Below, in pieces: positions 50,048 to 51,514 of a stretch of DNA of 64,000 nt. Origin of the DNA: Nitrosomonas sp. (lineage in GTDB: Bacteria > Pseudomonadota > Gammaproteobacteria > Burkholderiales > Nitrosomonadaceae); the NCBI GenBank assembly GCA_028577615.1, contig JAJSDU010000003.1:1-64000 (forward strand). The letters run 5' to 3'. Made by a program: the position numbers and the translations under genes. Within the stretch, counting starts at the first letter, position 1; each line of letters starts with the position of its first letter. Below the pieces are notes generated by a model. The model was not told the DNA's origin. It ran no database searches and worked only from the letters and a program-made list of their open reading frames with translations.

Positions 50048-50408
50048 GAATGAAACTCGCTTAATGGATTAAAATGCCCCGGAGATTACAAAAAAAGATG
50101 ACAATCGCGCAGTTTTTCTGAGCAATGAAAAGGCTGACGCAAAAGTTTTCATGAATTTCAAGGGAATGCCGAATATGGGAAAGGCGTAACAGATGCCATG
50201 AGCAATTATTTTGCTGTTCGCACAATAGTACTAAATGCGCCTGAACGCAAGTCAAGGTTAAAGAATTTAACGAGAAGCTTGCCGGGCAACTCAAGAATTC
50301 TGATTAAAGCCAGGATTACATCGGCAGAAGTGTCGGTTTATTTTACACAAGTTTCCGTTTGCAAATATTATCCGCAAATAACCATATGATTATAATGAAT
50401 AATAATAA
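50048..50408 (+). other. Upstream region of PEP-CTERM gene with repeats
   Basis: About 360 bp with no gene. A dyad GTGT-N11-ACAC lies at 50330-50348, and a direct repeat GCAAATA at 50361-50367 and 50374-50380 (13-bp spacing). Both lie 30-80 bp upstream of the sigma-54 site, where an enhancer-binding protein would be expected. In other bacteria PrsR is such a regulator for PEP-CTERM genes; I cannot confirm that these repeats are its sites. Confidence 0.4.
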
Positions 50409-50425
50409 CTGGCACAGATATTGCT
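50409..50425 (+). promoter_or_regulatory. Sigma-54 (-24/-12) promoter
   Basis: CTGGCACAGATATTGCT matches the RpoN consensus TGGCAC-N5-TTGCW at every conserved base, with exact GG-to-GC spacing. Predicted transcription start is about 50436, about 104 bases before the PEP-CTERM start codon. Dependence on RpoN and an activator is inferred from sequence. Confidence 0.8.
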
Positions 50426-50539
50426 CGGATTTATTATAAGTGGATAGTATTTTGTTGCTCCGTATGTTTTGCCATCTGGCTGTCCGCTACCGTGTATTGA
50501 ATTGCTCAATAGTCAATTATCGTTATTCAAGGAAAAGTT

Positions 50540-51514
50540 ATGTGTACATTATTGATGAAAAAAATCGCTGCTTTTCAAGCGCATTTATCTCTTGCCGAGA
50601 AGAAAATGCTTTTTAAAAAGCTGATAGCGAGTTTCACTATTGCGCTGACTGTGGGACTGGGTGCAGGTGGATTGACAGGATCCAATGCAATAGCCGCGCC
50701 TTTCGTCGTTTTGCTGGAGTCTAACGCCAACATGGGCGCAGGTCAGGAGGTTTTTCTGGTCACCTACAATTCGTATGCGGATCTGATCAGTAATAACCAG
50801 GCCAGCAGTACCTTTTCGCAACTGAACATCAATGCATCCTATAGCGTTGGTGGCATGGCTTACGACGGAAGTCAGTTCCATGTGTTATTGGAGTCTAACG
50901 TCAACATGGGCGCAGGACAGGAAGTTTTTCTGATCACCTACAATTCGTATGCTGATCTGATCAGTAATAATCAGGCCAGCAGTACCTTTTCGCAGCTGAA
51001 CATCAATGCATCCTATAGTGCTGGCGGCTTGACCTATGACGGGAGTCAATTCCATGTGTTATTGGAGTCTAACGCCAACATGGGTGCAGGTCAGGAGGTT
51101 TTTCTGGTCTCCTACAATTCGTATGCGGATCTGATCAGTAATAATCAGGCCAGCAGCGCCTTCTCGCAGCTGAACATCAATGCATCCTATAGCGCTGGCG
51201 GCTTGACCTATGACGGGAGTCAGTTCCATGTGCTATTGGAGTCTAACGCCAACATGGGTGCAGGCCAGGAGGTTTTTATGGTCTCCTACGATTCGTATGC
51301 GGATCTGATCAGTAACAATCAGGCCAGCAGTACCTTTTCGCAGCTGAACATCAATGCATCCTATAGCGCTGGTGGACTGACTGCCTTAAATACGGGAAAC
51401 GGTGGAAATGTTGTATCTGAACCTGCAACCATGATGCTGGTATTGATCGGCCTGAGCTTTTTGAGCGTATTTACTCGACGAAAAGATGGTAGATGCTGTC
51501 AGGCGCGCATTTGA
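50540..51514 (+). CDS. PEP-CTERM repeat surface protein
   Basis: 324 residues. A signal peptide (LIASFTIALTVGLGAGG...SNAIAAP, to about residue 54) is preceded by a 27-residue leader; ATG 50621 is an alternative start, but AAGGA precedes 50540. Four 58-residue repeats follow (LLESNANMGAGQEVFLVTYN, SYADLISNNQASSTFSQLNI, NASYSAGGLTYDGSQ). A linker leads to the sorting tail SEPATMMLVLIGLSFLSVFT plus RRK. The tail is the exosortase recognition signal: PEP-like SEPA, a membrane span and a basic end. The protein should be cut by exosortase and exported to the surface or extracellular matrix. The last few residues (DGRCCQARI) after RRK are unusual. Confidence 0.88.
   Translation: MCTLLMKKIAAFQAHLSLAEKKMLFKKLIASFTIALTVGLGAGGLTGSNAIAAPFVVLLESNANMGAGQEVFLVTYNSYADLISNNQASSTFSQLNINASYSVGGMAYDGSQFHVLLESNVNMGAGQEVFLITYNSYADLISNNQASSTFSQLNINASYSAGGLTYDGSQFHVLLESNANMGAGQEVFLVSYNSYADLISNNQASSAFSQLNINASYSAGGLTYDGSQFHVLLESNANMGAGQEVFMVSYDSYADLISNNQASSTFSQLNINASYSAGGLTALNTGNGGNVVSEPATMMLVLIGLSFLSVFTRRKDGRCCQARI
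50702..51397 (+). repeat. Four 174-bp tandem coding repeats
   Basis: Repeats start at 50702, 50876, 51050 and 51224, exactly 174 bp apart, and each encodes 58 residues. They differ at only a few positions at both DNA and protein level (for example SNAN/SNVN, VTYN/ITYN/VSYN/VSYD). This indicates recent duplication or gene conversion. Copy number could vary between strains. Confidence 0.95.

Follow-up and report, generated by a model that had tools for sequence, protein, structure and literature searches.

A four-repeat protein with a PEP-CTERM-like tail and a putative PrsR/sigma-54 promoter in Nitrosomonas sp.

A gene encoding a protein with four near-identical repeats was analyzed in a 64,000-nucleotide stretch of DNA from Nitrosomonas sp., referred to here as the window. 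The window's contig is contig 33 of a 2.6-Mb genome in 58 contigs, which is 90.5% complete. The data suggest that the product is probably a surface or matrix protein that is switched by PrsR and sigma-54, sorted by XrtA and equipped with a four-blade propeller-like domain, perhaps a glycan-binding one. The putative control circuit is one already known, and the repeat family looks undescribed; no description of it was seen among open-access papers that pair PEP-CTERM with propeller or with Nitrosomonas.

The repeat gene and its homologues

The coding sequence, taken from the list of open reading frames, lies at 50540..51514 on the + strand and encodes 324 aa, with an AGGA ribosome-binding-like sequence 5' of the ATG. 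An N-terminal extension and a signal peptide that ends near ...NAIAA (50540..50698, +) were assigned by eye from the translation and the homologue alignment. In this alignment the homologues begin at about residue 23 of the window protein, and if the signal peptide began where it does in N. aestuarii and N. marina, the annotated start would give 22 extra residues (50540-50606). Of the two candidates, it is the annotated ATG (50540) that has the better ribosome-binding-like sequence, so the true start is ambiguous.

Tandem repeats were determined with TRF, which showed one array with a period of 174 bp, 3.8 copies, 92% matches and 0% indels. The four 58-aa units start at residues 58, 116, 174 and 232. 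Repeats 1 to 3 (50711..50884, 50885..51058 and 51059..51232, all +) are 58 aa long, and repeat 4 (51233..51379, +) is present as its 49-aa core, which stops after the SAGGL strand. Over the 49-residue core common to the four units, identity was 90-94% for all six unit pairs. An earlier reading of this DNA, made from the letters alone (the sequence-only reading), had described four near-identical 58-residue repeats of no recognized family, and both descriptions were borne out, as the repeats had no convincing match in Pfam, NCBIfam or PDB sequences. The top NCBIfam row, NF038129, was rejected because its 18.4 bits fell short of the cut-off (65 bits) and its match extended into the tail. In PHROGs, phrog_14789 (E 4.4e-10), phrog_19646 (7.9e-7) and phrog_26316 (6e-6) were also rejected, because no single stretch passed alone. 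A tblastn search of phage records with the repeat domain gave no match, and no relative was found among plasmids or viral contigs.

An aminotransferase gene on the opposite strand begins 492 bp upstream of the four-repeat ORF. On the 3' side there is a tRNA-Leu gene on the opposite strand, followed by queA, tgt, yajC and secD (names read from translations), with secD 3 kb downstream of the four-repeat gene. EttA is encoded near the window gene and next to the Halioglobus copy (65% identical), but it was not found in loci L017, L018 and L062 and was left out of account.

Homologues of the repeats were found in N. aestuarii, N. marina, a Halioglobus MAG and a truncated gammaproteobacterial MAG (MAG bins as given). 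Among 399 genomes of relatives, a profile built from 13 units matched 3, one of them the window's own and all belonging to the same genus; in 369 genomes sampled from the class of the Halioglobus MAG, that MAG was the only match. A single-sequence scan of genome contigs found no homologue. An alignment-based contig scan found four loci, of which two were the copies of N. aestuarii and N. marina once more and the other two were those of the Halioglobus MAG and the truncated gammaproteobacterial MAG. The copy in the truncated gammaproteobacterial MAG contains at least two repeats, and its upstream DNA is missing. The full-length profile matched 17 of the 369 class genomes besides the window's own, the 369-genome samples of the full-length and unit-profile searches appearing largely alike. 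Sixteen of the 17 best matches ended at the PEP-CTERM end, and that in genome G416 lay in the repeats (E 9.2e-4). The 24 loci obtained from the full-length matches were not counted as homologues, since scanning all six reading frames with the unit profile revealed the repeat unit in none of them (0/24).

Promoter, sorting tail and exosortase system

A sigma-54 promoter, CTGGCACAGATATTGCT, was found at 50409..50425 (+), with its core TGGCACAGATATTGCT at 50410-50425. It agreed with the consensus at 11/11 positions and lay 114 bp 5' of the ATG, which confirmed the -24/-12 site that had been placed about 115 bp before the start in the sequence-only reading. This was the sole 11/11 site in the 64-kb window when both strands were scanned, and Markov-1 shuffles gave 0.2 such sites per 64 kb. 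The strict pattern TGGCACN5TTGCW was found twice genome-wide and once in the reversed control, so the sigma-54 site alone is suggestive, not conclusive. Judged from the GC of the -12 element, the predicted transcript start is near 50436.

A second motif, TGTCGGTTTATTTTACA (motif 1; 50331..50347, +), had been absent from the sequence-only reading. It lies 61 nt ahead of the sigma-54 site, is one of 12 exact copies of TGTCGN6TTTACA in the genome, and is presumed to be a PrsR-binding site. The bipartite element formed by motif 1 and the sigma-54 site was found in 0 of 100 Markov-1 shuffles of the window. Of 167 proteobacterial PEP-CTERM genes studied by Haft et al. (2006; PMC1569441), 99 had an upstream bipartite element in which a spacer separates a 17-nt motif ending in TTTACA from a -24/-12 motif; phylogenetic profiling linked this element to PrsR, PrsK and PrsT. 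By sequence, TGTCGGTTTATTTTACA and the sigma-54 site appear to fit this published element, the window spacer of 61 nt standing against a published mean of 62.8 nt (SD 10.6); the TGTCG half of the motif-1 pattern was derived from sequences in this analysis, not from the published logo. The bipartite combination is stronger promoter evidence than the sigma-54 site alone. In Aquincola tertiaricarbonis, another organism, pepA is likewise a PEP-CTERM gene with a -24/-12 promoter; its start has been mapped and shown to depend on rpoN1, according to the part of the report used here (PMC9850573).

The element was also investigated across the genome. At seven of the 12 exact motif-1 sites (the window's and six more), a sigma-54 site scoring 9/11 or better lay 60-83 nt downstream. 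Among the other five, one was too close to a contig end for the sigma-54 check, two had a site farther off (11/11 at 315 nt in one, 9/11 at 193 nt in the other), and the last two had no sigma-54 site of 9/11 within 450 nt. When one mismatch was allowed, motif 1 showed no excess (57 matches vs 63 in the control). The PF07589 search at E 1 gave nine places in the genome, of which L013 (E 0.99) was dropped for having no PEP-CTERM reading frame, leaving eight plausible PEP-CTERM genes. The bipartite element was present at four of these eight; one had a 10/11 sigma-54 site with just 153 bp of contig upstream, and three had no sigma-54 site of at least 7/11 with GG and GC in the 600 bp upstream.

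Several further sites were observed. The other exact TGGCACN5TTGCW site (contig C57:30460-30475, -; locus L019/L040) stands ahead of a small multicopper-oxidase-like gene, with an exact motif 1 315 nt upstream, far outside the usual spacer. Bipartite sites also precede genes for a protein of 159 aa that is hydrophobic over an N-terminal stretch (L039, C50) and a 302-aa Sel1-like repeat protein (L029, C3; name read), neither having an obvious PEP-CTERM tail. A third (L036; C28:1741-1757, -) precedes a gene for a 195-aa protein ending in IPTPSIISLFGIGILILRVIKK, a PEP-CTERM-like tail that was not listed by the PF07589 search at E 1.

The DNA ahead of the homologous genes was examined for the same element. 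Both N. marina and Halioglobus have it ahead of their copies, with a 64-nt spacer and a 9/11 sigma-54 site in the former and, in the latter, a 63-nt spacer and a 10/11 site, with TGTCA. In N. aestuarii no element stood immediately 5' of the repeat gene, but one (51 nt, 9/11) stood ahead of a PEP-CTERM gene that ends about 200 bp before it. The N. aestuarii repeat gene lies directly 3' of this PEP-CTERM gene (locus L017, 7801-8574 and 8790-9647), perhaps in one operon, and secF-secD lies about 4 kb beyond it. The predicted regulation thus accompanies the repeat family across genomes. A very improbable alternative is that the -24/-12 match is fortuitous and that a different promoter serves the gene. 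This would agree with the genome-wide count of the strict pattern (2 vs control 1) and with the presence of sigma-70-like sites upstream, but the latter are at chance level (5 found vs 4.5 expected in the scanned stretch), and the combined element is absent from the shuffles and is seen again beside family members elsewhere.

The sorting tail was examined with PF07589, which placed a PEP-CTERM-like tail (SEP, hydrophobic helix, RRK) at 51413..51484 (+). The PEP-CTERM assignment of the sequence-only reading was upheld, if weakly. In the genome search the tail passed the cut-off of 20.7 with 22.2 bits, but it fell below cut-off in whole-protein scans (Pfam 17.5 bits; TIGR02595 13.6, cut-off 16), and its motif is S-E-P in place of the canonical P-E-P. 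From its sequence, the window protein would rank as a weak match to the PEP-CTERM tail.

The genome encodes XrtA (TIGR03109, 346.9 bits, cut-off 208; TIGR02602 also matched), PrsR (743.5 bits, cut-off 502.6), PrsK (375.1 bits, cut-off 300, judged on the 280 aa present in locus L022) and RpoN (479.3 bits, cut-off 277.35). All were above their family cut-offs, so the exosortase sorting proposed earlier, which a genome lacking an exosortase would have contradicted, survived this check. PrsK adjoins PrsR (L022, contig 17), and XrtA lies on contig 36 amid genes read as exopolysaccharide genes. In the mechanism we propose, PrsK would activate PrsR, which would bind at 50331-50347 and drive RpoN polymerase at 50409-50425; the signal peptide would export the product, and XrtA would process its SEP tail. 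With the XrtA/PEP-CTERM system, as described in the sections of PMC1569441 drawn on here, the window gene has in common a signal peptide, a C-terminal sorting tail, a solitary position with a long upstream region, and the company of XrtA, PrsK and PrsR. It differs in having SEP for PEP and a repeat domain, which goes unmentioned in those sections.

Predicted fold of the repeats

The window protein was modeled with AlphaFold from an alignment of 4 sequences (pLDDT 64.1, pTM 0.62), and the prediction showed 16 strands, with a single short helix in each repeat. The Halioglobus repeat domain, modeled from 5 sequences (pLDDT 74.0, pTM 0.77), had a similar order, with some outer strands short or missing. 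The 16 predicted strands in four units correspond to four-stranded blades, and the Halioglobus model is similar in this respect. The strands run B-C-D, three times A-B-C-D and finally A, as in a velcro-closed propeller, with the N-terminal strands B-C-D and the C-terminal strand A predicted to complete one blade. The body would thus consist of four beta-blades of about 58 residues each, in a propeller-like domain.

The models were compared with known structures by Foldseek. For the window model, CylK (E 4.4e-5), an endo-levanase and endosialidases stood on top among the best 50 of 706 matches, and 4 matches had E <=0.001. For the Halioglobus model, the best 50 of 752 were headed by a C. elegans protein of unfamiliar fold, neuraminidases, GH43 enzymes and mannobiose phosphorylase, and no match had E <=0.001. 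Among these best 50, query-normalized TM-scores were at most 0.38 for the window model and at most 0.50 for the Halioglobus model. The best recognized matches are what we take to be mainly beta-propellers. Given these propeller matches and the low TM-scores, the modeled repeats are likely blade-like units, while ring closure and the number of blades per ring are less certain. Many of the matches are glycan-active enzymes, which hints that the repeat protein may bind glycans. The four near-identical blades would present the same surface four times, most likely to an exopolysaccharide or matrix partner.

The protein resembles highly repetitive beta-propellers amplified from single blades in its near-identical, blade-sized repeats and in the clustering of its units by protein, as such propellers are described in the parts of PMC9218822 and PMC6805158 used here. 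Unlike them, it matches no propeller family in the libraries searched, and it has four blades, whereas globally repetitive propellers prefer larger blade numbers (PMC9218822). The four-bladed hemopexin domain is alike in blade number, if the ring of the window protein closes, but no hemopexin profile was among the Pfam matches of the repeat protein, and hemopexin was absent among the best 50 of 706 and best 50 of 752 Foldseek matches.

Other arrangements of the four units were weighed against a single compact domain. Each chain might form half a propeller, with two chains pairing into an eight-bladed ring. Four-blade WD40 building blocks dimerized in designs (Afanasieva et al., 2019; PMC6805158), and the present models match larger propellers only in part; we nevertheless regard such pairing as unlikely, because a blade split between strands B-C-D from the N end and strand A from the C end permits closure in one chain, and natural oligomeric propellers are described as a minute fraction (PMC9218822). 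Near-identical tandem repeats together with a surface-sorting tail would also suit an extendable adhesin stalk of independent modules in a row, their number varying among strains. We consider a stalk rather improbable, since the repeat boundary cuts a predicted blade and four repeats were present in 4 of 4 complete proteins (only four proteins); with four repeats in each complete homologue, a compact propeller-like domain fits better. The matrix system and Asn/Gln/Ser-rich segments such as ISNNQASSTFSQLNINAS might point to a functional matrix amyloid with the repeats stacked as fiber units. This is highly improbable in view of the 57-58-aa units with a predicted helix and hairpins, the absence of any matched amyloid family in Pfam or NCBIfam, and the much shorter length of curli repeats.

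Evolution and significance of the repeat family

All four complete proteins contained exactly four repeats of 57 or 58 residues in the same phase, with the LLES-type strand first and the SxGG-type strand last. Mean core identity was 0.73-0.91 within a protein and 0.27-0.45 between proteins. Repeat pairs at the same position were closer by at most 0.02, and units of one protein clustered together whatever their position. When 17 units were placed in a tree, the four proteins separated with the minimum of 3 changes, a value as low being reached in 0 of 200 shuffles, although 11 of the 14 inner branches were weak. The clustering by protein indicates that the repeats were homogenized or re-amplified within lineages.

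Substitution rates between repeat copies were also estimated, roughly, from 49 codons each. In N. aestuarii, dS was 0.025-0.05 among units 2-4 and 0.23-0.26 against unit 1, and dN/dS was 0.26-1.58 on few changes. In the window dS was 0.25-0.40 and dN/dS 0.09-0.14, and in N. marina 0.15-1.7 and 0.07-0.19; the Halioglobus copies had dS of at least 2.2 or saturated, with dN of 0.12-0.24. These values indicate that in the older arrays the likeness of the repeats at the protein level was maintained by selection, not by recent copying alone. More tentatively, and with considerable doubt, each lineage of this four-blade propeller family might derive all its blades anew from a single one, through amplification or gene conversion, and the number might stay at exactly four because the matrix needs four identical binding faces or a half-ring obliged to dimerize.

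What looks to be an undescribed repeat family is thus placed within a control circuit whose prediction dates from 2006 and which, according to the parts of the literature used here, has been tested in few bacteria. The host is a Nitrosomonas-type ammonia oxidizer, a kind of bacterium that matters in wastewater treatment. If the predicted fold holds, the family would offer a small, very symmetric four-blade protein for studying why repeat number and blade identity persist.
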